33,076 nt of DNA from a virus, in IMG/VR virus record IMGVR_UViG_3300050033_000355, positions 1 to 33,076 of that record. One strand, 5' to 3'. This document shows positions 3,332 to 33,076 of the stretch, one piece after another. The translations under genes and the position numbers were made by a program. Every line of letters begins with the position of its first letter. The first letter of the stretch is position 1. The notes beneath the pieces are model-generated. The model ran no database searches. It saw only the letters and a list, made by a program, of their open reading frames with translations, and had not been told where the DNA came from.

Positions 3332-4145
3332 AAGCCGGTGATCCAAAACTACCTAGTTGCGTTTGTTCCCATTGATCCAGCCAATACTCGGTGGAAATCT
3401 TATCGCGGTTGTTCGCCGCCGTCGCATTGGTTCCGCTGCGCTTGAGCCATCCCCAAAGATAACCCGGTTGCGTGGCCGGAGCCGCAAGATATTGGACAAA
3501 GTATTGGAATCTCGGTGGCAGCGGATAAATCCACGAAGATGAATTTGTCAGTTCCGAAAGCAATTGCCCGACAGTATAAACGCAGTCCACGTTGAAATCT
3601 GACACGTTCGAGGAATATCCGTTTCCAACTTCCGTCTCATGTCGAAGGACATATTGGCTGAATGGATAGGATTCAGAGCCTTTCAAAAGAAGGTTATACA
3701 CGTTGGAAAGATAGGTAAAATCGGTTCCGGTAATGCTGGCGTCAATTTGTGATTTGATATTTGAAAAAGAAACATTTGATGAAACCCCGTTTTTCAAAAC
3801 TGCAATTTGATTTGTGTAAAAATCCGTGCCATCGTCATATTTCAAAATCCGCAGCATGGCCGGAGCGTCATAGCGAGATTTGCTTGTTTCGTTCGCCAAA
3901 ATCTGCCAAACATCAATCGCAGGAAAATTACTGTCCTGCAAAACCACCTTCGCGCGACCAAACTCAAACGAGTATTCCGTCGGAACACGGGCGGCAATGT
4001 TTGCATTTGCCAGAGCGATGGCATTCGCCTCACTGAAAGAATCAAAATCAAACACCTGAAACCCGCCGCTCGACGGGTCGTATTTGTAGGTGTATTTATT
4101 TTCTTGGGGTGTATATGTCCCCTTATCGTAAATAGGGCCACTCAT
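3324..4145 (-). CDS. Hypothetical distal tail protein
   Basis: A 273-residue protein, MSGPIYDKGTYTPQ at the N-terminus, starting 1 nt after the tape-measure stop. The composition is mixed alpha/beta and rich in Tyr, Phe, Asn and Ser, with no signal peptide or transmembrane segment. It is the first gene after the tape measure, where siphophages usually encode the distal tail protein; I cannot confirm that family from sequence alone. The C-terminal WLDQWEQTQLGSF region looks amphipathic. Confidence 0.6.
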   Translation of the reverse strand: MSGPIYDKGTYTPQENKYTYKYDPSSGGFQVFDFDSFSEANAIALANANIAARVPTEYSFEFGRAKVVLQDSNFPAIDVWQILANETSKSRYDAPAMLRILKYDDGTDFYTNQIAVLKNGVSSNVSFSNIKSQIDASITGTDFTYLSNVYNLLLKGSESYPFSQYVLRHETEVGNGYSSNVSDFNVDCVYTVGQLLSELTNSSSWIYPLPPRFQYFVQYLAAPATQPGYLWGWLKRSGTNATAANNRDKISTEYWLDQWEQTQLGSFGSPAYA

Positions 4146-4146
4146 A

Positions 4147-6690
4147 TTAGTGTTGAACTCCGTTTAAGGCTTGTGTGTTTTTAGTTCTCTGCTCGGAATT
4201 ATTTACTAATTGTTGAAGCAAAGAATTTGTGCGTTGTTGGAGTGGCACAAGCGGATTTCCACCTTGCGCCGTGAACGCGCCCAACCGCTGCCGTTCGTTT
4301 AATCCAGCCGGCTTGTTCTCGGTTCCCTGCATTTCCATCAATCCTTTGTTCTTGGCAAAAAAATCACGTTGGAGCACGGCAATTTCGTCCTGTGGCGCGC
4401 CGCGATTTTTTGCAGCGGCGAGTTCCGCCTTTGATTTTTCGAGGTCATCTTTTGCCTTTTGCAACCCAGCAACCGAGGCTGGCTCGGTCTTGCTTTCCAA
4501 CGATTGTTTTTTGGAAAAGAAATCGCGCGACAAGGCTTCAATCTCATCTTTCGGAGCGCCTTTTTTCTTCGCATCCGCAAGGTCGGCTTTGGCCGTTGCC
4601 AATTCCTGTTTTGCCACCGCAAGATTTTTAAGCGGTTCTGGCATTAACTCGCCTTGCTGCTGAATTCTACGCGTGGCAATGGCGGCATCGGCGGCAGATT
4701 TTCCAGTAGTTTGCTGTGTTAACAATGCCTTATCGGAAGTGATGACATCCTGCCGCAGTTTAAGCGTGCTTTGTTCCGCGTCATCCATCTTGCGCTTGGC
4801 ATCGGCTGCGGAAACTTCATCCTTTGACATCCCCGACTCCATCTTCTGCTTGGCTGCCTGTGCTGCCTTCAGTCTGGCTGCGATTTCTTCCGGTTTTACG
4901 GCTGGCATTTTTTTTCCATCAACCGTTCCAACCAGTTTTCCTTCTTCTTCTCCTGTGTAGGCATCCTTAGGTTCCAGAACGGACTCTGATACAACACCAA
5001 GAAAATTAAGACCTAGTGTTTTTTTCCCACTTTCAGCCATCGCCCTCATTTTCCCGTTTTCTCGATCAAACTGACGTTCTTGAAGCGCATCTTTCCATTT
5101 GGCAAGGGTTTCTTCCTCGCGTTTCAAATCGGCGAGTGTCTTTATTCTATGAGAACCTTCAGTCCCAGCTTCAGTGGTTTTTTTCTGCGAGGCTGCATAT
5201 TCGGATTTCTTTGATGCCAATGTCTTTTCAGCATCCGCATGGTCAATATGTCTCTGAATCGAAACATTCGTAAGTTGTATAACCTTGCGCGCCTGTTCGT
5301 CTTTAATTGCTGCTATATCCACGGCAGCTTTTCGCCTAGCCGCTTCACGCGCTGAAATCTTGCCGGTTTTTTCATCAAATTCGATTTGCGCATCGGCGCG
5401 CTTTTTAGAGGCTTCTGCCAGCGTGTTTTCGGCTTCTGCCTTGGCGTTTATGGAATCCACCGCACGATCTGAAATTTCTGCCAATGTCAGTTGTTTTTTT
5501 CCTACCAAATCAAGTGCCGTCGCTAATTTGCGAGCCGCGTCAGCCTGTTTGTCAAAGGCTTCTGTCTGCTGCTGTGACTGCGTATAACCGCCAAACATCA
5601 AATCAAAAACATTTTTTTGCTTTTGTGCCAGCTTATCGTAATAACTGATTAGTAGTGCTATTGGAACTAACGCAATGGCAATAATTATTCCGATTAAACC
5701 CAATTTCCCAAGCATTGTTGGTAGCAGCTTTGCGTTCACTCGTTCCATCTCGGCTTTTTCCACCAACGCCTCGGTTTCAGCATGGAGCGCCATCGTGCGC
5801 TTTAACGAGGCTGCGGCAGCTTGATTGGCCGCAATCTTATCAGCTTCCGTTGCGGCGGCATCTTCTGCCGTGACAACTGCTTTAGCCTCTAAAACAATGG
5901 ATTCTTGCGCCGACGCTGCGGTTAATTTTTCTGATGCGAGCGCGGCGTCAATGTGTGCGTCCGCTGTCGTCCCGATGATTTTACGAAGCCAGCCAAGCCG
6001 CTGTCCGAGAATCATCACTGATCCAATGATTCGACCGGTGCCGCGCCCCTGCAATGTTTCATGGCTCAGGACGGCTATTTCCTGAACGACACCGGCTTTT
6101 GATCCGCCGCCGTGCCCGCCACGGCCAAGCAGTCCAGCCGAGCCATAACCTCGCGCTGCGTTGCGGGCAATCAGCAGTTGCGCCGCCTTCGCCGCCGCAA
6201 CTTCTTCCGCATACAAAATGTCTGCCGCTGCGAGTTGCGCAGCCTTTTCATCCTCATAAACCCGACCAGCCAACTTTTCTTGCGCGATTATTTGAGCAAT
6301 CTTTTCAGCGTTGGACGCCTTCGCCGCCGCAACTTCTGATTTTTTGACCGCTGCCGCCTGCGTCGAACCCATCAGCCGCAGCCGCAATTTTTCCGTCTCG
6401 ATGTTTTTCTGAAAAGCCAGCGACCCTTTTTCTAATGCGTCCCATTTTTGATAAAGTGGCAGCAGAACGGAATCACCAGCCTTTTGTGAAAATGCTTTTT
6501 CAATCTGCTTGTCAATGTTCGCCATCGGCTTGGTGAACATGGCTGCATACTTCGCCTCCATCGCCGTGATGTTGTCGCGCAAATTGCTCTGCATGGCTAA
6601 CCCTGCGTTTTTCGCCTCTGCCACGCTGTTATTCAGCATCGCGGTGAACCCGGCATTGTTGCCGGTCATGGTGACAACTAATCCTGGCAT
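4147..6690 (-). CDS. Tail tape measure protein
   Basis: An 847-residue, Ala/Lys/Glu-rich, mostly helical protein, which is the hallmark of tape measures that set tail length and are ejected during DNA entry. Long heptad-like coiled-coil stretches cover about residues 95-180, 245-325 and 380-790. A single strong hydrophobic segment at about residues 330-350 (GLIGIIIAIALVPIALLIS) fits the membrane-inserting segment often seen in these proteins. A Gly-rich hinge (GLLGRGGHGGGSKAG) lies near 187-200. Near the C-terminus a 33-residue unit is duplicated (about 700-732 and 753-785). An AAAGGA sequence upstream of the ATG is one of the few Shine-Dalgarno-like signals in the window. The start overlaps the preceding gene by 13 nt. 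Confidence 0.88.
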   Translation of the reverse strand: MPGLVVTMTGNNAGFTAMLNNSVAEAKNAGLAMQSNLRDNITAMEAKYAAMFTKPMANIDKQIEKAFSQKAGDSVLLPLYQKWDALEKGSLAFQKNIETEKLRLRLMGSTQAAAVKKSEVAAAKASNAEKIAQIIAQEKLAGRVYEDEKAAQLAAADILYAEEVAAAKAAQLLIARNAARGYGSAGLLGRGGHGGGSKAGVVQEIAVLSHETLQGRGTGRIIGSVMILGQRLGWLRKIIGTTADAHIDAALASEKLTAASAQESIVLEAKAVVTAEDAAATEADKIAANQAAAASLKRTMALHAETEALVEKAEMERVNAKLLPTMLGKLGLIGIIIAIALVPIALLISYYDKLAQKQKNVFDLMFGGYTQSQQQTEAFDKQADAARKLATALDLVGKKQLTLAEISDRAVDSINAKAEAENTLAEASKKRADAQIEFDEKTGKISAREAARRKAAVDIAAIKDEQARKVIQLTNVSIQRHIDHADAEKTLASKKSEYAASQKKTTEAGTEGSHRIKTLADLKREEETLAKWKDALQERQFDRENGKMRAMAESGKKTLGLNFLGVVSESVLEPKDAYTGEEEGKLVGTVDGKKMPAVKPEEIAARLKAAQAAKQKMESGMSKDEVSAADAKRKMDDAEQSTLKLRQDVITSDKALLTQQTTGKSAADAAIATRRIQQQGELMPEPLKNLAVAKQELATAKADLADAKKKGAPKDEIEALSRDFFSKKQSLESKTEPASVAGLQKAKDDLEKSKAELAAAKNRGAPQDEIAVLQRDFFAKNKGLMEMQGTENKPAGLNERQRLGAFTAQGGNPLVPLQQRTNSLLQQLVNNSEQRTKNTQALNGVQH

Positions 6691-11648: not shown

Positions 11649-11685
11649 TTGCGGCTCGTCCTGGCTTAACGTGGCGCGCTGGCTG
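11649..11685. repeat. 37-bp direct repeat, copy 1
   Basis: A perfect 37-bp repeat (starting TTGCGGCTCGTCCTGGCTTA) recurs at 11758-11794, 109 bp downstream. The spacing is not a multiple of three and no gene covers it. The surrounding block is rich in GGCTGG and TTGGC motifs. Confidence 0.9.
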
Positions 11686-11757: not shown

Positions 11758-11794
11758 TTGCGGCTCGTCCTGGCTTAACGTGGCGCGCTGGCTG
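11758..11794. repeat. 37-bp direct repeat, copy 2
   Basis: Second perfect copy of the repeat at 11649-11685. Both copies are followed within about 10 bp by related GCTGTTGG / GCTGGTATG sequence, so the original duplicated unit may have been longer. Confidence 0.9.
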
Positions 11795-19669: not shown

Positions 19670-20809
19670 TTAACCCAAAAGCGTGGCGATGTATTTGGTG
19701 TTCCAAGCCTTCGCCTGATAATACGTCACCATTTCGTAGGTGTTCATCAGGTAGCCCTTGTAAACCGCGATTTCATAGACCAAGCCACGGTCGTCTTGCA
19801 CCGTCATGCGCTCGATGGCGATGTCACCGCCGGGCGGTAGCGCCGGGGGACGCATCACCAGTTCAATCGCGCTGCGGTGGAACGCGGTGTTGGCCGTGTA
19901 GATGGCGTTGACCGTCACCGTGTCGCCAGTCGTTTGGGCAGCCATCAGGCCGGGTTCGGCAATGACCAATGTGGTGCTCGAAAGAGCCGTGGCAACGACG
20001 TATTTGTAATTTCCGATGGTCACAACGTCACCGGCCACAATCGTTCCAGAACCGTCCTTGACAGTAAGCGTAGTAGCGCCCTTGACGTGGGAACCGTTCA
20101 AAACATAGTTCGTGCCAGTGCCGATGGCCGCAACCGTGACAGATTGGGCAGTTTCACGGATGCTGAACCCTTCGAGGTTCAGTAGTTCGCCGCGCCGGAG
20201 CAGGATGTCATTGCCAGCCTCATTGGCTTTGTAAAGGTTCGGAACCTGGCGGAGCTTGGTGCCCGCCGTGGTGTTGATGGCAAGGCTCAAATTGCCATCC
20301 ATCGGAGAACCATTGTCCAAAAGAATCTGCCGCACATCGGCGATGTTGTTGATGGTCGTCGCAAACGGCGCGGTGCCAGCCGTGCCAGTGGCGCGGGAAG
20401 CGCCAAGCTGGGCGATGCTGGCTACATGGGCTTCAACGGCGTTGCGGATGCCGCGCATGGACTGCGCGAACATATCCTGCATCACGCGGTCATAACCGGA
20501 GGTATTCTGCAACTTGAGCCAGTCCTCACCATTGATCGGAATGGCGACGCGGGCGGTCTGTCCAATGGTCATCGTCTTGGCGGCGATGGTGTAGGCATCC
20601 GGCGCGGGCACGGTCATGGCCGGCGTGGCGCTGGAATTGACCGTGGCGGCGGGCGTCACGAACGATTGCACCGTGCCGTTGATGGACACGCCATCTTTGG
20701 AGGTGTTGATCGTGCAACCCTGCAAATAGCCGGTCGGCTCATTGGCCACGACATCGCGGGCTTTGAAAATGATTTCGGTGAGGGCCGATAGTGTAAGTGC
20801 GTTTGCCAT
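19670..20809 (-). CDS. Major capsid (coat) protein
   Basis: A 379-residue protein beginning MANALTLSALTEIIFKARDV. The length, the N-terminal helical arm followed by alternating strands and helices, and the position directly after a scaffold-like gene all indicate the coat subunit that forms the icosahedral shell. A small inserted beta domain (GATTLTVKDGSGTIVAGDVVTI at about 250-270 of the protein) resembles the accessory domain seen in P22-like coat proteins, and the order also fits that group; I treat P22-like as possible, not proven. Neighbours are the scaffold upstream and a terminator downstream. The leader is A/T-rich without Shine-Dalgarno. Confidence 0.8.
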   Translation of the reverse strand: MANALTLSALTEIIFKARDVVANEPTGYLQGCTINTSKDGVSINGTVQSFVTPAATVNSSATPAMTVPAPDAYTIAAKTMTIGQTARVAIPINGEDWLKLQNTSGYDRVMQDMFAQSMRGIRNAVEAHVASIAQLGASRATGTAGTAPFATTINNIADVRQILLDNGSPMDGNLSLAINTTAGTKLRQVPNLYKANEAGNDILLRRGELLNLEGFSIRETAQSVTVAAIGTGTNYVLNGSHVKGATTLTVKDGSGTIVAGDVVTIGNYKYVVATALSSTTLVIAEPGLMAAQTTGDTVTVNAIYTANTAFHRSAIELVMRPPALPPGGDIAIERMTVQDDRGLVYEIAVYKGYLMNTYEMVTYYQAKAWNTKYIATLLG

Positions 20810-21732: not shown

Positions 21733-22548
21733 TCAAACCATGTTTTCAAGAATTTCATCCATGCTTTCAACAACGCCGTCTGTGAATCCAATTTCAGCAG
21801 CTTCCTGCCCATCGAACACCAACCCGTTACCAAATTTGTCATCGTTCACCACGCGATAAGTTTCCATCGCCTCTTTGAACTGGCCGTAAATTTTGTCCAC
21901 CCCCAACTGCAAAATCTCGCGCTCGTCGTCCTCCAGCGGCTTGAAGGATGCGCCAAGTAGCTTGTATTTTCCTGCGAAGATTGCGTTGACCTTAACGCCC
22001 TGTTCCTCCATTGCCTTTGTGAGATCGAGCGTCATGCAATAGACGCCACATGATCCGACGCGCGAACTTTGCGTGGCATAAAACCGCTGACATTGGGCGG
22101 CAAGCCACAGTCCGCCGCTGCAACACTCCGAATTGGTGAATGCAATTGTTTCCTTGCGCGAATACTGAATTTTTCGGCCGGCTTCAGGGATTCCAGTCAC
22201 CGTTCCGCCTGGGGTTCGGAAATCGTAAATTACACGCTGGATACGCGAATCGTTTTCCGCTGCGTCAATCGCCGCGCTCAAATCTTCCATCGCACACCCA
22301 CATTCTGACATGGCAATGTCCGAAGGATGTGCTACCAAGACACCATGAACCGGAATGATGGCAGTAGAGCCTTCCATCTGTGTATCATCATCGTCGTCCA
22401 CTGGGTTTGGCTTTGGTTGGTCATCAGGCATATCCACCCGCATTGAACCCATGCGCGATTCAACCAATTGGGCAAGCGCAGCCCATCGTTGCGGCGTGAT
22501 AAGCAGCGGTTCAAACAGCTTAGAAATTATGTGCGAGTAAGATTTCAT
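21733..22548 (-). CDS. S49 (SppA-like) head maturation protease
   Basis: A 271-residue protein with the S49/ClpP-fold sequence: a central strand IIPVHGVL at 64-71, a DFRTPGGTVTG turn at 109-119 and ECCSGGLWLAAQC at 141-153, in which S144 is the likely nucleophile (family SGG or SAAYW). The GKYKLLGA at 193-200 carries K194 and K196; K196, 52 residues after the serine, fits the Ser-Lys dyad spacing of S49 enzymes. This fits the lambda gpC-type prohead protease that trims scaffold and portal in head maturation. The N-terminal 55 residues include an acidic stretch (PVDDDDDTQ). It starts 4 nt after the portal stop. Confidence 0.85.
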   Translation of the reverse strand: MKSYSHIISKLFEPLLITPQRWAALAQLVESRMGSMRVDMPDDQPKPNPVDDDDDTQMEGSTAIIPVHGVLVAHPSDIAMSECGCAMEDLSAAIDAAENDSRIQRVIYDFRTPGGTVTGIPEAGRKIQYSRKETIAFTNSECCSGGLWLAAQCQRFYATQSSRVGSCGVYCMTLDLTKAMEEQGVKVNAIFAGKYKLLGASFKPLEDDEREILQLGVDKIYGQFKEAMETYRVVNDDKFGNGLVFDGQEAAEIGFTDGVVESMDEILENMV

Positions 22549-22551
22549 GGA

Positions 22552-24231
22552 TTATTTTTTGGACGGAGGTTCCGGTGGTTGCGGCGGCGAACCTTTCAAG
22601 GTTGGAAGCTGCGGCGGTTCGTCGGTTGGCGCGGACAAATCAATCTGCTGGTTGGCGTTGCCGAGATTGTCCAACATCTGCAAAACCTCTTTTGGATTCC
22701 AGATTGGCTCTCCCTTGTCGTCGAGTTGTTTTTTTGAAATTTCAACGGCGGATTTCATCAACCGCGCCCGCCGCTCAAAGATTTGCTCCTCGATGTTTTC
22801 CACGTTCAAACCAAATTTTCCGCAGATCACTTCCGGGCTGGTTAAACCGCGCGCCATCATGGCCAGTTCACCCTTCAAATCGTTGCCTTCATCCACGGAA
22901 ATTTCCTGTGGCGTCGAAAGTGCGATGTTGTAGGCGTCAAATAAATTGTCGTTCTTCGGGATTTCCTTGTTGGTCATCGCGTGCGCGATTTTTCGCTGCA
23001 TCCACGCCTTGCCGAACTTGGCCAGCGTCTTATGCCGTTTCCAGACGATTTGACGCGCCTGCACGATGTCAATTCGCGCCGCAGCACGCCCCTGCTTGTC
23101 GCTGTAAATAAAACCCCTCGGCCATAAATCCGCAAAGAAACCTGTCTCAATAAGCTCAATAAATTCCCGTTCGTTCATCGAAGGCCGCTCAAATGGGACG
23201 CTGGCGATTTCCTCGTCATTATTCGTCGCCAATTCGACAATGCCAGCCTGCATCAACTGGTGCGCCACAATGCGAGTTGAAGTTGTCCCGTCCGCCGCCG
23301 TGGTGGTAACGGGCTTGTAACTCACGCCGCCGGTTGGCCGGCCATCTTTGCTCTTGCGCGTCACCGCCCACGCCGCGCTTTGTTTCATGGCCTGCCCCAT
23401 GTAATAAATCCAGTCGTCCACCGTCCCGACCGATTCCACGATACCGGATAGCCCAGGATAACCCATGATTTGATCGGTGAACTTCGGCTCGAAAATCAGA
23501 TTCATTTTCCCGACCGGCAGATCGGCGCAGGCCGGCTTGCCGTCCACATCAAAGCCAATGACGCGATAACCGAGCGTCATCATCTGGCTGTTCACGATGA
23601 TGCCATCAATGATGAAATTTCCAGCGAACGGGCCTTCCGTAATTCGGAAATAATTAGCACCGTAAGTCCCGGTCAAGCCGAGTCCCCAATAGGTCAGATA
23701 CGTCGCCGCATTGCCGAGTTCAAAAATCTTGCCAACGCGAGATTCGGGCGACATCCCATTGCCGATGCTGGTGGCGGAAATCAGCTTGATTTTCCCGGTG
23801 CCTTTACCATTTTCGTCCGTATCGAACATCCAGCCAACCTGTCCATGAGTTTCCAATGCGATTGAAACTTCCGCCAGCGTCGTGTGAAAGTCATGGTTCT
23901 GGCCTTGCAGGTTGCAGTCGTTGTAATAGGTTTCATTCAGGTAAAGTTCGGTGGCTTTGCCCCAAACTTTGTCCGCACTGCGATGCTCCACAAAGCAGCC
24001 GTCCGAACAGGCAAAATCCGTCTTGAAATGGATTGCGCCGCGCACGTTTGGAATCTTTGCGTAGATGCCCCATGCCCAGTTGATGAGATCGCGGCGCTGC
24101 CACGGCGTCACATTCTCAAACGAGCGCATCCGCAGAAACGGTTTTTGCCGCCCTTCCGTCACCGTAGGCGTGGAGTAAAGCCCTTGGTAAAAGTAATTGC
24201 CGCGCCGGTCGAATGTGGTTGAATCAGCCAT
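22552..24231 (-). CDS. Portal protein (lambda-type)
   Basis: A 559-residue protein beginning MADSTTFDRRGNYFYQGLYS. Its size, early helical region with RSFENVTPWQRRDLINWAWG, the central NEREFIELIETGFFADLWPR and KQGRAAARIDIVQARQIVWKR helices, and a disordered Pro-rich C-terminus (ending PPQPPEPPSKK) match lambda-type portals. Twelve copies form the DNA entry ring and dock the terminase. It sits between the gpW-like gene and the S49 protease, in the standard lambda order. Confidence 0.88.
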   Translation of the reverse strand: MADSTTFDRRGNYFYQGLYSTPTVTEGRQKPFLRMRSFENVTPWQRRDLINWAWGIYAKIPNVRGAIHFKTDFACSDGCFVEHRSADKVWGKATELYLNETYYNDCNLQGQNHDFHTTLAEVSIALETHGQVGWMFDTDENGKGTGKIKLISATSIGNGMSPESRVGKIFELGNAATYLTYWGLGLTGTYGANYFRITEGPFAGNFIIDGIIVNSQMMTLGYRVIGFDVDGKPACADLPVGKMNLIFEPKFTDQIMGYPGLSGIVESVGTVDDWIYYMGQAMKQSAAWAVTRKSKDGRPTGGVSYKPVTTTAADGTTSTRIVAHQLMQAGIVELATNNDEEIASVPFERPSMNEREFIELIETGFFADLWPRGFIYSDKQGRAAARIDIVQARQIVWKRHKTLAKFGKAWMQRKIAHAMTNKEIPKNDNLFDAYNIALSTPQEISVDEGNDLKGELAMMARGLTSPEVICGKFGLNVENIEEQIFERRARLMKSAVEISKKQLDDKGEPIWNPKEVLQMLDNLGNANQQIDLSAPTDEPPQLPTLKGSPPQPPEPPSKK

Positions 24232-25180: not shown

Positions 25181-27328
25181 TCATTCCGATTCTGGAGCAC
25201 TCATTTCCGCCGGCGCGACCGCGCCAAGCAATCCCTGCCGTTTCATTAAATAGAGTATCCCGCAGCAACAATCGCTGTAATGGGGGTCGTCGTGAGCCTC
25301 GATGATTTCCATCTGTTTTGATTTAGGATTCATCGTCCGCACATTGGCCGAAATCTGGCTTTCCCATGACCGCTGATGCTGCGTGCTGTCCACCTCCATT
25401 TCGCGCGTCTTGTCCGAAAGTAGAAACTTTGTCGGGTCTTTCGGGTCGGAAGCGGATAAAGGCAATGCCGTCAACGTCGCCTTGCCGGGCACCTTCAACG
25501 CCGTGTTCTGCAAAATCGTCAGCAGTTGGTCTTTGAACCGATGATTTGACCAGCGAATGATGTTCACTTCCACACCAATGGTTTTCCCGGCGAAATCCAC
25601 TGGCACAACTTCCTTTTCTGGCTTTGAGAAGTCCCTGGTAATATCATCATCATGTCTAAAGCTGCGGCGGTTGTCACCAATCAACCCTGTCCAAGTTATG
25701 TAAAAACGTCCAGTCTTTCGCCCGCCATCATCGTAGCCATCCATAATTTCTGCGTTGGCGGCAGCATTGTTTATGACCTCGTTGCGAAAATATGCAGTGT
25801 CAATAACTATGTTGTAAGGCGAAATTTGCAATTCCTTTGCCTTCAAAATCCATTCCATCCAAGAAGTGCAATAGCCGCGCCAAAGCTGCTGTTGGTTGCC
25901 ATGATTATCCCATGCGTGCGCCACCACCCAGAAATGTCCCGTCATGCCGCCCTTGCCGGATTCGGGATTCTGTGCGGAAACTTTTTTATCCTTCTGACAG
26001 TCCACAGCCATACCTCGTCCGGCCTCGTTCGGAATGGCAATCGTCGGGTCAACCGTGTTGAATGATGGTGAGAATTTTACACGATTTGCGCTTTCTTCGT
26101 CCCAATCTTCTCCCTCCCATTTAGTGCGGAACTCCTGTAATTGCATCGTGTCACCCTCATTGAACGCCGCCATTGCGTGCTTGAAAGTCAGCATCACCGA
26201 CCCCCAGCTTGGTCGCGGGTTGATCCAGCGCGGAAGCGAGTATCCAAGGAATCCCGGCAATGCCGTTGGGCGTGTGGCGATCCAGTTATCGTCTAGCCCG
26301 GCCTCGCGGTCAAGGTAGAGTCGGGTCGGCCCATACGTCACCTTGTCGCCAGCGTGATAAATGTTGTCGTCGCGCCATATCCCGCCACAGTGCGGACACT
26401 CATAGACCGTGGACTTGATGATTTCACGCTCGTTAAAACTGCCGTCATCGCACTTTAATTCGCCTTCGACTTTGAAACCGCAATGCTTGCGCTGTTCAGA
26501 AATTAGGATTGGCCGGTGATGTGCAACCCAAGCCTCGCGGTCAAGCGATGGAATGGAAGCCGGCGCGATAATTTTTGTTTCTTCATTCCGCACATGATGG
26601 AACGTGAACCGCACGCGCGTCTGGCATTCCGGGCAACGCACCCAGAGCTTTTGTTCGTTTGTCTTGCCCATGAAATCCGCGAAGCCGCCGCCAAGGTTTC
26701 CCATCGGCGCGTCGCCCTGCGATTCCACGCACCACAGATAGCTTGACTCATATTTGGTGAACCGAACTTCAATCTTGCGGACATAACTCGCTTCCACCAA
26801 TGCCGCGTCATGCAGAAATCCATATTTTGCAGGGAACGATTGCACCCATTGCTCGTTCAATGGCCGCGCCCGGAAAACCATACCGGGCAATAAAATGTTG
26901 GTGGTGCAAACATCCCAGCGCGTCTCTGGCGTGGCCGCTATCCGTTTGAATATCGGTCCTAAAATCGGATCGCTCCGCAAAATCGGCATATAGCGATTTT
27001 TCATGTGGTCATCCGACTTCGCCTCATTCATGTCCCACATGAGCGTGTCCGCCGGATAATACTTCATCATGAACTTGGCGATGAGTTCAAGAATCGTCGT
27101 CTTGCCAAGCTGGTTTGCCGCCCGAACGCCGATGCGCCGCGTCGTCCGCTTGAACGCATCCCGCAGAATCTTCCGGTGAAAATGGCAGGCAAGAAACTCC
27201 TTCGTGTTCGGATTCTCCGTGTCGTCCTCGTAAATTTGCCCGCGAAACACGGATTCAGAAACGGCGGCAATGGCCGCTTCAATCATCGCCCCACAATGCC
27301 TCTGTCCAAATTCAGTTGGTTGGCTCAT
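25181..27328 (-). CDS. Terminase large subunit (GpA family)
   Basis: A 715-residue protein. Residues 71-78 (ANQLGKTT) form a Walker A-like loop (variant first position) for the packaging ATPase, followed by the helix and strand of the ASCE core. The middle has two paired CxxC motifs (CPEC near 240 and CPHC near 310) as in GpA-type terminases, which add a zinc ribbon. The C-terminal half (with acidic residues such as DDDITRD and VDCQKDK) holds the nuclease domain that cuts DNA to unit length. The start at MSQPTEF gives a 17-nt overlap with the small subunit gene; an earlier in-frame Met would overlap by 53 nt. Confidence 0.88.
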   Translation of the reverse strand: MSQPTEFGQRHCGAMIEAAIAAVSESVFRGQIYEDDTENPNTKEFLACHFHRKILRDAFKRTTRRIGVRAANQLGKTTILELIAKFMMKYYPADTLMWDMNEAKSDDHMKNRYMPILRSDPILGPIFKRIAATPETRWDVCTTNILLPGMVFRARPLNEQWVQSFPAKYGFLHDAALVEASYVRKIEVRFTKYESSYLWCVESQGDAPMGNLGGGFADFMGKTNEQKLWVRCPECQTRVRFTFHHVRNEETKIIAPASIPSLDREAWVAHHRPILISEQRKHCGFKVEGELKCDDGSFNEREIIKSTVYECPHCGGIWRDDNIYHAGDKVTYGPTRLYLDREAGLDDNWIATRPTALPGFLGYSLPRWINPRPSWGSVMLTFKHAMAAFNEGDTMQLQEFRTKWEGEDWDEESANRVKFSPSFNTVDPTIAIPNEAGRGMAVDCQKDKKVSAQNPESGKGGMTGHFWVVAHAWDNHGNQQQLWRGYCTSWMEWILKAKELQISPYNIVIDTAYFRNEVINNAAANAEIMDGYDDGGRKTGRFYITWTGLIGDNRRSFRHDDDITRDFSKPEKEVVPVDFAGKTIGVEVNIIRWSNHRFKDQLLTILQNTALKVPGKATLTALPLSASDPKDPTKFLLSDKTREMEVDSTQHQRSWESQISANVRTMNPKSKQMEIIEAHDDPHYSDCCCGILYLMKRQGLLGAVAPAEMSAPESE

Positions 27329-28145
27329 TTTCAGGTTCAAGTATTCCGCGCGCGCAAAGTTCATAGTGCCTCTGGAAATCAGACACTAATTCAATACCAT
27401 CGCGCCGCAGCTTTTCAAGAAACGCCGCCCTTGTGGATTCGTCGGCAATGAAGTTTTCCAACCCGCAACTTACTTTTGGAATAAGCTGGTTTTCCAAAAC
27501 TTCGCGCGCCGCGTTGCGAGCCGCGATTCCCAATCCGGCACCATCCTTGGCGGCAACGTCCGTTAGCGTGTATTTTTCATTATTTTCCTTTTCAATGCGG
27601 TCAGCTTTGGCTTCGCGGATGCGAGCGTCAGCATCCTCGATCCGCTGGCGCGGATTTCTGTTTTCGGAAGCGCCACGATAGCCGCCCGCTTTTTTTTCCA
27701 GCAGCATCCATTTGTCGAACCATTCAATCCACGCTTTCAGACTATATTTTCCACGCTTCTTACCGCTTATTGTTCCTGGTGGTTCGTGTTGCCCGGCATC
27801 CAACCGGTTTAATTTACACCAATCACTAACCACCCCTTTATCAATATCAATGCCTAACTGATTTGATCCATCAGGATTAGTGTAGTGCAGCCTCATCCGT
27901 TCCGCTAAAGCCTGCTGTGTATCACAAATAATGTCGCTTGGTTTAGCTACCGCAGACGCTTCTACTCCGATTTTAATTATGCCCCAATCATAGAGCTTTT
28001 GTTCCTGCCACTTTTGGGTTTCGCCGCCGAGATACTTTGAATACAACACGCGGGCGTTGCTGCGCTCTGCCGGCGATAGTTTGGCAAACACGGCCTCAAC
28101 TTCATCTGGCGTCAAATCGCACGGCGTTGTTGGTTCATCATTCAT
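27312..28145 (-). CDS. Putative terminase small subunit / packaging DNA-binding protein
   Basis: A 277-residue protein beginning MNDEPTTPCDLTPDEVEAVF. The central part contains RMRLHYTNPDGSNQLGIDIDKGVVSDWCKLNRLDAG, a possible winged HTH that would bind packaging DNA, and a long charged helix (ADARIREAKADRIEKENNEKYT) that could form a coiled coil as in Nu1-type proteins. It lies directly before the large subunit with a 17-nt overlap. Start ATGA-coupled to the lysis-like gene. Assignment by position and features, not by a certain motif. Confidence 0.65.
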   Translation of the reverse strand: MNDEPTTPCDLTPDEVEAVFAKLSPAERSNARVLYSKYLGGETQKWQEQKLYDWGIIKIGVEASAVAKPSDIICDTQQALAERMRLHYTNPDGSNQLGIDIDKGVVSDWCKLNRLDAGQHEPPGTISGKKRGKYSLKAWIEWFDKWMLLEKKAGGYRGASENRNPRQRIEDADARIREAKADRIEKENNEKYTLTDVAAKDGAGLGIAARNAAREVLENQLIPKVSCGLENFIADESTRAAFLEKLRRDGIELVSDFQRHYELCARGILEPENEPTN

Positions 28146-29180: not shown

Positions 29181-29342
29181 TCACATTACACCAAATTCAG
29201 AGAATGATTTCTTCTGCCGCTTCGGCGATCTTAACCAATCACCAATGTAGCCCGCGCCGGGCGTCCATCCGCGCTGGCGCAACTTGCGTAACTTCGCCTT
29301 TTCCGAACCAGACGCCTTGCTGAATCGTGTGTGATTTTTCAT
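29181..29342 (-). CDS. Small basic hypothetical protein
   Basis: A 53-residue protein beginning MKNHTRFSKASGSEKAKLRK. It is Lys/Arg/Gly-rich (RQRGWTPGAGYIGDWLRSP) and may bind nucleic acid or ribosomes, but no family is evident. The ATG overlaps the stop of the acyl carrier protein gene (ATGA), so it is part of the same translational chain. Confidence 0.5.
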   Translation of the reverse strand: MKNHTRFSKASGSEKAKLRKLRQRGWTPGAGYIGDWLRSPKRQKKSFSEFGVM

Positions 29343-29581
29343 GCTATTTCACCCCAACCTTGTAGAACCTTCAACGCATCGCCGTAGGTTTTAATGCCTT
29401 CAACAATATCGTCTGACAGATCGGACTCGATGACTTCCTCAACCTCCATACATAATTCAATCATGTCCAGCGAGTCCGCGCCAAGGTCTTCACAGAACCG
29501 CGATGCTGGCTTGATTTCAGCAGACTCAACGCCGAGGTGTTCAACGATGATTTCTTTCAGTTTTTGTTCGGTGATTTTCAT
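29339..29581 (-). CDS. acpP: Acyl carrier protein
   Basis: An 80-residue acidic protein with the canonical acyl carrier motif: GADSLDMIE at 34-42, with S37 as the 4'-phosphopantetheine attachment serine, after the EDL turn and followed by the hydrophobic helix II (MEVEEVIESDL). Size and helix pattern match type II ACPs, which carry acyl chains in fatty acid or polyketide synthesis. It lies inside an operon of phage genes, with ATGA overlaps on both sides. No acyltransferase or phosphopantetheinyl transferase is visible here, so it would need host enzymes. A phage-encoded ACP is unusual. Confidence 0.9.
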   Translation of the reverse strand: MKITEQKLKEIIVEHLGVESAEIKPASRFCEDLGADSLDMIELCMEVEEVIESDLSDDIVEGIKTYGDALKVLQGWGEIA

Positions 29582-30435: not shown

Positions 30436-30984
30436 TTATTTGGTTAGCTGTTTGTTTCGTGCGTCCGACATTCTCTTCCTGGACTCTTTGCTCCGCTGTT
30501 CGTGAAAGTAGGGAAGCTCCGGCAGTTTGCGTTTGAAAAATCTAAAGCATTTATTCACCGCCGCCTTGGTAACTTCTTCGCCGTTCTGAAACGAAAGCAG
30601 TTTCACCAAATCTGTTTGTGATCCTGCCCCGGCGGCGGACGGGTAGCCCAACAACAGCAGGCAGCATCGAAATGCCAGATTGCTGTTGCCATTATTTTTG
30701 ACGTAGGATTGATACAGTATAAAAGCGCGCTCTTCCAATATGTGAATTTTCCAGAATTCGGCCATGATTTTTTCGCGCGCCTCGCCACCAAACGATTCAA
30801 GGATTTCGTCCACAAGTTCCGAAGCCTGCTCGCCGTTAAGCCGAAAGCGTTCACTTAATCTATCCAAACAGGCCGCTGAATCGCGCCCATCCGTCACAGG
30901 TTCAATCTGTCCGTGGTCGCCAAAGGCAACGTCAGATGCAAATGGCTGAATTGAATAATGATTGTTCCCTTGAGCGTCCTTCAT
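30436..30984 (-). CDS. Putative HTH regulator
   Basis: A 182-residue protein. The N-terminal 60 residues are acidic and polar; the C-terminal half contains QTDLVKLLSFQNGEEVTKAA followed by VNKCFRFFKRKLPELP, which fits the turn and recognition helix of a helix-turn-helix protein (TxLAxxxx...TxAAVxKC-type), followed by a basic tail. It is ATGA-coupled to the integrase gene. As a regulator beside the integrase it could control integration or early transcription; this is inferred. Confidence 0.55.
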   Translation of the reverse strand: MKDAQGNNHYSIQPFASDVAFGDHGQIEPVTDGRDSAACLDRLSERFRLNGEQASELVDEILESFGGEAREKIMAEFWKIHILEERAFILYQSYVKNNGNSNLAFRCCLLLLGYPSAAGAGSQTDLVKLLSFQNGEEVTKAAVNKCFRFFKRKLPELPYFHEQRSKESRKRMSDARNKQLTK

Positions 30985-32090
30985 GGTGTTGGTGTCAGGT
31001 TATTGGTTGATGGTCTTAAAGCAATAAATCTTTCGGCGTCGGAGTGCGTGACGTTGGCAACATAGCTTTTGGCCGCTATCGTTTCACTATGGCCGAGCAA
31101 CCGAGCCGATTCAATCGCTCCCATCAATTCACGGGCGTAGCTCGCCGCCGAATGGCGAAGGGCGTTTTGAGGAATTTCCACGCCGGCCAGTTCGCGAATT
31201 TTCTTCATCCGCTGGAAAAGATGCTTCCCGCCAAGTTCAACGCCGGGCACCGCCAGCCATGCCGACAAGGTTTCCGTCACCACTACATCGCGCGGCTTTT
31301 TCAACTTCGTCTGGCTACCATCAAGCTGGATTTTGCTGCCGACAACATCATCTTTGAGCGTGCGTGCCGACTCGCCCCGGCGCAGCCCGCCAAACAGAAT
31401 CATGGCGACATGGCCGATCAGGGCGGGGTCATGCTGTTCGCACGCACGCAGAATCTTCTCAATCTCGTCCACGGTCAAGATTTCAGGCCGCTTATAGGGG
31501 ACGGATGGTGCATCAACCGCCGCCACCGGGTTGCCGGCCACCAGCTTCCGCTTCACCAGCCAGTTAAAGGCCGTGCTTAACGCCGTGTGGCGTCCCTTGC
31601 GCGTCTGCGGCGTGTAATCGCCCGCGTAGAGCCAAGTCTCGATGTCGGCGGCCACAACCTCGCCAGCGGGCTTCTGGCACGCTTGGGCGAAGGATTTGAG
31701 GGCGCAGGCCAGCGTGGACACCGAGTTTGACCGTTTGCCGGACTGTTTCTTGGACGCCACCACTTGAGCAAAGGCATCGGTTAGCGTTAAAACTGGCATT
31801 TCTTGCCGCTTTACCTCTGTGGCGGCTTCCGTAACCAACTTGAAATCGCGGCATCCTTCAAATTCCCTTGAAATGGCGGCAAGCTGGCGGCGGTGTTCAA
31901 TCATCGCGCGCTTCTTTTCGAGATCTTTAGCAAAGCTGGACGCGGCTTTTTTGCTCGCAAATTTGGCGCGTGATTTCCCTACGATATGACGAAGTTTTTG
32001 GGGGACGTGAACATACCAAGGTAAGGCGTAGGTCAGTCGTAGGTCAGACGAGAAACGGTGTGGCGTTATTCTCCTATTCGCCATAACCAT
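30981..32090 (-). CDS. Tyrosine recombinase (phage integrase)
   Basis: A 369-residue protein with the tyrosine recombinase catalytic set: R237 in GLRRGE, a Lys-rich hairpin TKLKKPRD near 261-268, R312 in NALRHSAAS, H334 in LLGHSE and Y343 in KSY. The first His of the usual HxLRH box is Asn (N309), a known but uncommon variation. The N-terminal part (to about 85) is a basic arm-binding-like domain, then an SAM-like core-binding domain (about 100-185). It lacks the insertion that marks integron integrases. The gene starts at 32090 (ATG GTT ATG; the second ATG is possible). It is co-directional with the late genes and ATGA-coupled to the regulator gene. It should catalyse phage integration and excision. 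Confidence 0.88.
   Translation of the reverse strand: MVMANRRITPHRFSSDLRLTYALPWYVHVPQKLRHIVGKSRAKFASKKAASSFAKDLEKKRAMIEHRRQLAAISREFEGCRDFKLVTEAATEVKRQEMPVLTLTDAFAQVVASKKQSGKRSNSVSTLACALKSFAQACQKPAGEVVAADIETWLYAGDYTPQTRKGRHTALSTAFNWLVKRKLVAGNPVAAVDAPSVPYKRPEILTVDEIEKILRACEQHDPALIGHVAMILFGGLRRGESARTLKDDVVGSKIQLDGSQTKLKKPRDVVVTETLSAWLAVPGVELGGKHLFQRMKKIRELAGVEIPQNALRHSAASYARELMGAIESARLLGHSETIAAKSYVANVTHSDAERFIALRPSTNNLTPTP
32015..32047 (-). repeat. 11-bp iteron cluster inside the integrase 5' coding region
   Basis: Three tandem 11-bp units on the minus strand: CTGACCTACGA, CTGACCTACGC and CTTACCTTGGT. A 23-bp part (32017-32039) is repeated perfectly at 32118-32140, 101 bp upstream. The 11-bp period equals one helix turn, as expected for phased protein-binding sites. 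Confidence 0.8.
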
Positions 32091-32115
32091 TGAATCTGTT
32101 GATGTTGGTCACTGT

Positions 32116-32148
32116 TTCAAGGTAAGGCGTAGGTCAGTCGAAAGTCAA
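32116..32148 (-). repeat. 11-bp iteron cluster at the integrase promoter
   Basis: Second cluster: TTGACTTTCGA, CTGACCTACGC and CTTACCTTGAA in tandem. The central and last units are identical or near-identical to those at 32015-32047. The cluster covers the candidate -10 and spacer of the integrase promoter, so a bound protein would block or recruit polymerase. Confidence 0.8.
32119..32148 (-). promoter_or_regulatory. Putative integrase promoter
   Basis: On the minus strand TTGACT (32148-32143) is a good -35; TTACCT (17-bp spacer) or TACCTT (18-bp spacer) is a weak -10 at 32125-32119. The start codon at 32090 follows at about 30 nt. The weak -10 embedded in the iterons fits a promoter under control. 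Confidence 0.45.
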
Positions 32149-32216
32149 GCATCTTTTCCAACTATCCTCAAAAAGCGAGCGGATATGCCAATGAATTGAG
32201 TGGTGTAAATAGTGAA

Positions 32217-32255
32217 ATTAGTTTAGATAACTGATAATAGCGTCGCTAAACTAAT
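32217..32255. other. 10-bp perfect inverted repeat
   Basis: ATTAGTTTAG (32217-32226) and CTAAACTAAT (32246-32255) are perfect complements separated by 19 nt. It lies just downstream of the stop of the minus-strand gene at 32260-32535, before the integrase promoter. It is A/T-rich and lacks a T-run, so it is a poor terminator; an operator or recombination core is possible. The spacing is too long for a typical 6-8 bp crossover core. Confidence 0.5.
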
Positions 32256-32259
32256 GCCA

Positions 32260-32535
32260 TCACGCCCGCATTAAAACCTGCTGGACTTTCTTTCCGGCGA
32301 GCGTAGGCGATATTGACCAGCCACCCCAAGGGTCTTTATATGTGCTGAACTGCATCTGCGGCTGACCTTTGATGCGGATTATTACCACGGCATCAGCGGA
32401 CGGCTTTGGCGGCTTAAACACGTTGTCGTTTTCTTGAATCAATGCGGCAGCTTCTTTGTGCCGATAGTATGCCGCTATGCCTTCCCGTCGGCGGTGCGCT
32501 TTGATTTTACAAAACCTTGACTGTGAACGTCTCAT
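32260..32535 (-). CDS. Small hypothetical protein
   Basis: A 91-residue protein with a basic N-terminus (MRRSQSRFCKIKAHRRREGI) and a compact C-terminal half with DAVVIIRIKGQPQMQFSTYK and PWGGWSISPTLAGK. It is separate from the phage array (169 bp of control DNA between them) and lies just before the cassette-like region. The minus-strand sequence upstream holds a 13-codon mini-ORF from ATG at 32581. No family recognised. Confidence 0.5.
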   Translation of the reverse strand: MRRSQSRFCKIKAHRRREGIAAYYRHKEAAALIQENDNVFKPPKPSADAVVIIRIKGQPQMQFSTYKDPWGGWSISPTLAGKKVQQVLMRA

Positions 32536-32572
32536 AAAATCATTCTGATTTTAACTGCGGCATAAATGCTTT

Positions 32573-32579
32573 GTTGGGC
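32573..32579 (+). other. attC/attI core-like GTTRRRY site
   Basis: GTTGGGC fits the integron core GTTRRRY. The 16 bp before it (GCGGCATAAATGCTTT) resembles the L' arm of known attC sites in order and length (GCGGC, then TAA, then a short spacer). I found no matching RYYYAAC box within about 140 bp upstream, so this is a half-site, an attI remnant or chance. Confidence 0.35.
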
Positions 32580-32613
32580 ATCGTTACACCACCAACATTA
32601 ACACCATCATCAC

Positions 32614-32868
32614 ATGAAACATTACATCCTACTATCGGTCGCCATCCCACCACAAGACACACACATCGAGCTACACAAAGCTTGGCTGAATCTCTTGTAT
32701 GAATACCCAACACACAAACCAGCAGTTGCAGGAAGCGAAAGGCTTTCCGAAAATGTGTGGCTGTTTGAAAGAGACAGTTGCGCGTCAGCATTCGCACATC
32801 TTGTCGCCGCCGCAGAATCTGTTGGATTGCTGTGTCGTATTCAGTTTTTGACATCCGACGATGCCTAA
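32614..32868 (+). CDS. Integron gene-cassette-like ORF, unknown function
   Basis: An 84-residue protein beginning MKHYILLSVAIPPQDTHIEL, with mixed alpha/beta sequence. Its stop codon TAA (32866-32868) sits inside GCCTAAC, the R'' box of the attC site that follows, which is the usual arrangement of integron cassettes. The start follows the core-like GTTGGGC by 34 nt. No Shine-Dalgarno; expression in a cassette normally relies on an upstream promoter. I do not recognise the product. An opposite-strand frame (32540-32914) covers the same DNA but has poor composition and is rejected. Confidence 0.6.
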   Translation: MKHYILLSVAIPPQDTHIELHKAWLNLLYEYPTHKPAVAGSERLSENVWLFERDSCASAFAHLVAAAESVGLLCRIQFLTSDDA

Positions 32869-32973
32869 CAAGTCGCCGGAGCCAACCGGCATTGGACGTT
32901 TCTTTTTTATTCATAAAAGGTTTCAGTTATGCCACATCGCAGGTTGCCGGTGGCTCAGCTTTTTTCGTTAGGC
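32863..32973 (+). mobile_element. Integron attC recombination site (111 bp)
   Basis: R'' GCCTAAC (32863-32869) and R' GTTAGGC (32967-32973) are perfect complements and fit RYYYAAC / GTTRRRY. Inside, GAGCC-A-ACCGGCA (32879-32891) pairs with TGCCGGTGGCTC (32945-32956) with one extra unpaired A on the L'' side, the extrahelical base that defines attC polarity. The arm-to-box distances (14 and 10 nt) match classic attC sites. The loop is a variable 53-nt terminal segment. These features together are strongly diagnostic of an attC, which folds as a single-stranded hairpin for integron integrase. It indicates the plus-strand cassette is 32614-32868. Confidence 0.85.
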
Positions 32974-33076
32974 CACTTTTGCACCCGCAGCATTTATCAG
33001 ATCGCGCATCACTTGACGCTTTGCCTTTTCATAGAGCATGGCTTCTTTATACGCCTTGCAAGCCGCATCGTGTTTC
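32968..33076 (-). CDS. Partial hypothetical protein (N-terminus off the window)
   Basis: The C-terminal 35 residues of an Ala/Lys-rich helical protein (KHDAACKAYKEAMLYEKAKR and onward, ending NAAGAKVA) are open to the right edge. The TAA at 32970-32968 lies inside GCCTAAC of the attC R' box on the minus strand. It therefore converges with the cassette ORF. It may be a reverse-oriented cassette gene or a host gene. Confidence 0.5.
   Translation of the reverse strand, partial: KHDAACKAYKEAMLYEKAKRQVMRDLINAAGAKVA

Follow-up and report, generated by a model that had tools for sequence, protein, structure and literature searches.

The DNA analysed here, called the window in what follows, is a contig of 33,076 nucleotides from an IMG/VR virus record. 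It carries phage structural genes, a tyrosine integrase and, towards its 3' end, a small gene that points away from the beginning of an integron cassette array. The features are, with their positions in the window:

19670-20809, minus strand: major head protein of the P22-coat type (phrog_283, 2e-58)
21733-22548, minus strand: head maturation protease (phrog_53, 8e-61)
22552-24231, minus strand: portal protein (phrog_21, 8e-10)
25181-27364, minus strand: terminase large subunit (phrog_15, 9e-16)
30981-32090, minus strand: phage tyrosine integrase, not an IntI (phrog_1, 8e-21; TIGR02249, 18 bits; 44% to the integrase of G329, a viral relative)
32030, 32041 and 32131 (plus strand) and 32359 (minus strand): candidate integrase arm sites AGGTCAGNCG, within 32030-32368, a possible intact attP
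32260-32535, minus strand: conserved small phage gene of 91 aa, divergent from the array and in the position of intI, with homologs at array heads
32536-32579, plus strand: putative docking (attI-like) site at the array head, cassette junction G/TT at 32573/32574, 22 of 33 nt as in the head of the relative L176
32574-32967, plus strand: gene cassette 1 (TTGGGC...attC...G), starting at the G/TT of the head box
32614-32868, plus strand: cassette ORF of 84 aa, stop TAA inside R'', with a weak homolog among cassette genes
32863-32973, plus strand: attC site, R'' at 32863-32869 and R' at 32967-32973; the recombinogenic bottom strand is the minus strand
32968-33076, plus strand: beginning of gene cassette 2, truncated where the contig ends, with CACTTTTGCA following R' and the end of an antisense ORF

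The phage body also contains a perfect 37-bp direct repeat (11649-11685 and 11758-11794) and an ORF at 29339-29581 (minus strand) that, by eye, resembles an acyl carrier protein.

The attC is genuine and far above chance. It has complementary R boxes, L'' and L' arms with extra bases and the structure described by a covariance model, properties by which such sites are recognised. The R'' box (GCCTAAC) and the R' box (GTTAGGC) are complementary at every base, as a preliminary description of this DNA had claimed, and that description was also right in placing the stop codon of the 84-aa ORF within R''. The L arms pair as well, with two extra bases (G and A) unpaired on the L'' side rather than the one unpaired A described before. 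Folded as DNA, the bottom strand of 32863-32973 did better than 198 of 200 shuffles (z -3.07). A rule-based finder that recovers class 1 and Vibrio attCs gave this site as the only one in the window. Our covariance model CM R1, trained on 28 Limisphaerales attCs with that of the window left out, recognised it on the bottom strand alone, with 82.4 bits (E about 1e-20). The opposite strand had 11.9 bits and no other place in the window exceeded 12.2 bits; class 1 attCs are also detected by this model, at 26-35 bits. An Rfam search of the window produced no match. Fold and covariance search had both been proposed in the preliminary description, together with a hunt for more attCs, which within the window revealed no further complete site and, at 32968, the start of a second cassette.

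Scanning 84,980 species for an exact sequence pattern pointed to a metagenome-assembled genome of the Limisphaerales. The L'-R' half of the site (GGTGGCTCAGCTTTTTTCGTTAGGC), with at most 3 mismatches, occurs more than 120 times in 25 of the 49 genomes of one family of this order, and the reversed control never does. One genome of the same family (G111) has an intI with two attCs of the window type, and IntI proteins over the curated cut-off were found in 64 of 196 Limisphaerales genomes (control genomes, 0 of 14). The window is best explained as a segment of a phage with hosts among the Limisphaerales (Verrucomicrobiota). Integrons are widespread among the Limisphaerales genomes searched, and the literature that we found offers little on the integrons of this order. 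In several genomes (L114, L121, L122 and L126) the arrays have at their head CTTGACTGCCTTCTCATGGAAGTCGCCGGAGCC or close variants, an attC that lacks R'' and lies behind a promoter-like sequence. At the ends of cassette arrays in two genomes (L143 1445-2961, G201:C241; L153 from 1389, G224:C126) the gene of a large serine recombinase ends within an attC 5' half, possibly belonging to an element that uses attC as integration site. A Limisphaerales contig (L015 1-4450) has a tyrosine integrase and a replication-like gene, and its far end is an attC 5' half located at the contig end.

Cassette 1 has TTGGGC as its first bases and the G of R' as its last, as expected of a cassette, and the 10 nt that follow the head box score 3.2 bits with the cassette-start profile of the family versus -3.2 bits with that of the outer R'' flank. 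Since a second cassette begins behind R', the array comprises at least two, and the lone cassette of the preliminary description has to be abandoned: 32968-33076 opens another one, and the CACTTTTGCA directly after R' is similar to other cassette starts of the Limisphaerales family. The window thus holds one complete attC and the start of a second cassette; its relatives L176 and G326 hold many attCs. In the genome G152 a cassette gene near an intI encodes a weak homolog (27%, E 1e-3) of the 84-aa protein. Close relatives of this protein were sought in viral contigs, plasmids and phages and none was found, and the peptide behind the second boundary gave no matches in phages.

The left boundary of the array is the core-like GTTGGGC already indicated in the preliminary description, located at 32573-32579, and in the CM R1 scan of the window it is not part of an attC. 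For this reason the phage is not itself a cassette, an option that was ruled out as 32579 is not the end of an attC. The same phage (99% identical) is present in L003, another IMG/VR contig, and in their last 2643 bp the two are identical throughout. They begin to differ precisely at the R position of GTTRGGC (32576), past which there are seven more common bases and then unrelated DNA. The L003 flank has ~90 bp, too short to show the orientation of its cassette. The difference between both contigs at the same boundary would represent cassette turnover. The left end of the window phage was sought and could not be recovered, and there is probably no right end at 32573, where the preliminary description had located one.

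The small gene is what connects this boundary with those of other phages. Its 91-aa protein is 50% identical (74 aa) to one in the phage G326 and 57% (70 aa) to one in L176, both encoded at array heads, and over the full alignment the identity among the three is 45-48%. A more divergent version (29-31%) is found at an array head in G329, where the spacing is different, about 44 nt. Read from the small gene towards the array, the heads of the window, L176 and G326 can be aligned along 75 nt with no gap, with the start codons of the small genes in register 37 nt from the GTT box. In the 33 positions before the box 22 are identical between the window and L176, and 23 between L176 and G326 (manual count). 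The 12-nt stretch preceding the box is not rare alone, as 2 of the 1,123 GTT sites of the window score equally high against L176, and the argument for a docking module depends on the longer alignment, the common register and the small gene in combination. The window and G326 have different terminase families (phrog_15 and phrog_2), so the head module is common to different phages. AlphaFold modelled the small protein with little confidence (pLDDT 70, pTM 0.33), too little for the model to be of use. This protein is not a known recombinase and may be part of the cassette system. By sequence, a conserved and possibly attI-like site with a G/TT junction stands at the head of these arrays.

The layout is reminiscent of the order intI-attI-array and the first cassettes differ between strains, as could be expected if 32091-32573 were the attI region of the host and the phage had merely integrated upstream of a host integron. 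We consider this largely refuted and hardly credible any more. Among 320 Limisphaerales genomes none gave a real match to the segment 32091-32572, the matches of the phage end are no better than those of a reversed control, the array heads of the genomes G111 and G043 look different, and the small gene occurs in phages. Only slightly better placed, and still very improbable, is an entry of the cassettes by chance, through illegitimate or homologous recombination at the GTTRRRY motif, with a head module that merely travels between phages with the array. Such routes were proposed by Qi et al., who considered off-target or illegitimate recombination as the origin of the attC clusters of phages (PMC9892861). 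Exact G/TT junctions and unrelated DNA from the same base in near-identical phages resemble, on the contrary, a site-specific exchange, and the site can be aligned in three phages.

Arrays enclosed in phage genomes were found among the relatives. Scanning IMG/VR with the attC of the family gave 14 stretches, and L176 was found by a scan with the small protein. Along a single contig, L176 has an Erf gene, exonuclease VIII, attCs at 3449-5472, the small gene and a DnaC-like gene, i.e. phage genes on both sides of the array. G326 is a phage with terminase, portal, clamp and helicase that lacks an integrase of the clade found in the window. Across its two contig ends the order is exonuclease, array, small gene, and the array is internal if, as we assumed, the molecule is circular and the array is split over the contig ends. 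An array of G329 has on one side the small gene and the integrase, which is the closest relative (44%) of the integrase of the window, and on the other a gene block of the same viral contig. This viral contig has two attC arrays in opposite orientation (L173 90-4369 and L174 7155-10680). Genes for RecT or Erf and an exonuclease adjoin the arrays of L156 and L161 too, and L163 has a further array inside a phage contig. DNA methyltransferase genes are located in or beside the phage cassette arrays at L161 7641-8363 and L163 7757-8404 (the latter by eye). Another viral contig with attCs encodes a fragment of an IntI-like protein (L157 1-396), 42% identical to the IntI of G111.

No intI adjoins the array in the window. 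The neighbouring integrase reaches 18 bits with the integron-integrase model TIGR02249, whose cut-off is 265, in agreement with the preliminary description, which had not taken it for an IntI and had concluded, correctly, that the cassette needs an integrase in trans. Close relatives of this integrase were sought in genome contigs and none was found. The window has 4 copies of AGGTCAGNCG, all of them between 32030 and 32368 (0.12 expected). The first three are separated from the fourth, which is inverted, by a perfect 10-bp inverted repeat (32217-32226/32246-32255) that is 127 bp from int, within the range of distances of its relatives. Judging from this arrangement, the repeat and the AGGTCAGNCG copies look like an attP with arm sites. 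If so, the attP would be intact and the molecule is probably not an integrated prophage.

It is also conceivable that a prophage was put by its own integrase at the R box of an attC in a host integron array, so that 32573 would be attR and everything to its right host DNA. That was our earlier working explanation, dropped once arrays had turned up within the phage contigs L163, G326 and L176. A shift of the attachment site from a tRNA gene to an attC had once seemed likely because the tRNA genes lie on the int 5' side and the junction is 480 bp upstream of int. Indeed, among 37 Limisphaerales relatives of the integrase a tRNA gene is found on the int 5' side in 20 and on the 3' side in none, indicating that the att sites of this clade are normally on the side of the array. 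The different cassettes in the window and L003 could represent independent integrations, and a Vibrio prophage with flanking attC is known (PMC9892861). Against it, the same small gene and site stand at the phage-enclosed array of L176, and also in G326 without such an integrase, the two arrays of G329 are oppositely oriented, and a better attP candidate is available between int and the small gene. Furthermore, no enrichment of R boxes is seen around 30 relatives of the integrase, whose usual neighbours are tRNA genes, and this clade was ruled out as attC-targeting. We therefore regard this origin as unlikely, although it is the most plausible of the alternatives considered.

The most probable explanation, and one in which we have reasonable confidence, is that of a cassette array carried by a phage at a docking site conserved among phages, beside a divergent small gene, probably loaded by the IntI of the host in trans. 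The array would be docked at the phage site, with the junction at 32573/32574 and 37 nt away from a small gene that points in the opposite direction, a layout equivalent to intI-attI-array with the small gene where intI would be. By analogy with integron biology, the host IntI would insert and swap cassettes in trans, recombining the folded bottom strand of attC into the G/TT of the phage site. As in its relative, the array of the window would be internal to the phage. This position is deduced from homology because the contig ends in cassette 2, and for the window alone an integration junction is possible, the att sites of the integrase clade being on the int 5' side, the same as the array. 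The preliminary description had left the choice between a phage beside an integron array and a captured cassette. Capture is the better description, with the qualification that the array is at a conserved docking site, and the presence of this boundary module around arrays that lie within other phage genomes speaks against the first option. All the contigs compared are metagenomic and the evidence presented comes from comparing their sequences.

A docking site common to at least two otherwise different viruses suggests that viruses borrow the cassette-swapping machinery of their hosts. More tentatively, and with somewhat more doubt than confidence on our part, Limisphaerales phages might carry a dedicated integron head devoid of integrase, made of the docking site and a small accessory protein, that enlists the host IntI in the course of an infection for the loading, exchange and spread of cassettes, some of them useful against host defence. 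If true, these phages keep a standing port for cassettes, which is more than an accidental pick-up, and the cassette pool of the hosts becomes a shared gene store that phages can transmit.

Sedentary chromosomal integrons resemble the window in the type of attC, the structure of the cassettes and the presence of a divergent gene beside the array head, whereas the head found here has no intI, its small gene is no known recombinase and the array is phage-borne. IS1111-attC insertion sequences and group IIC-attC introns are also mobile elements that meet integron arrays at attC. They insert into the attC, while in the window the boundary is not an attC and it is the cassettes that are found at a phage site. 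The closest known system is that of the CALINs, attC clusters without intI, described in temperate and virulent phages by Qi et al. in 2023, whose attCs were recombined by IntI1 in their assay (PMC9892861). They share with the window the attC arrays without intI in phages, and also include methyltransferase cassettes (PMC9892861). In the parts of that article drawn on here a shared docking site or head gene is not described, whereas a small gene and an alignable site recur here at the array heads of different phages that share a host lineage. Clusters of attCs without intI were thus already known from phages (PMC9892861), and what appears to be new, as far as the articles consulted show, is a docking module common to different phages.
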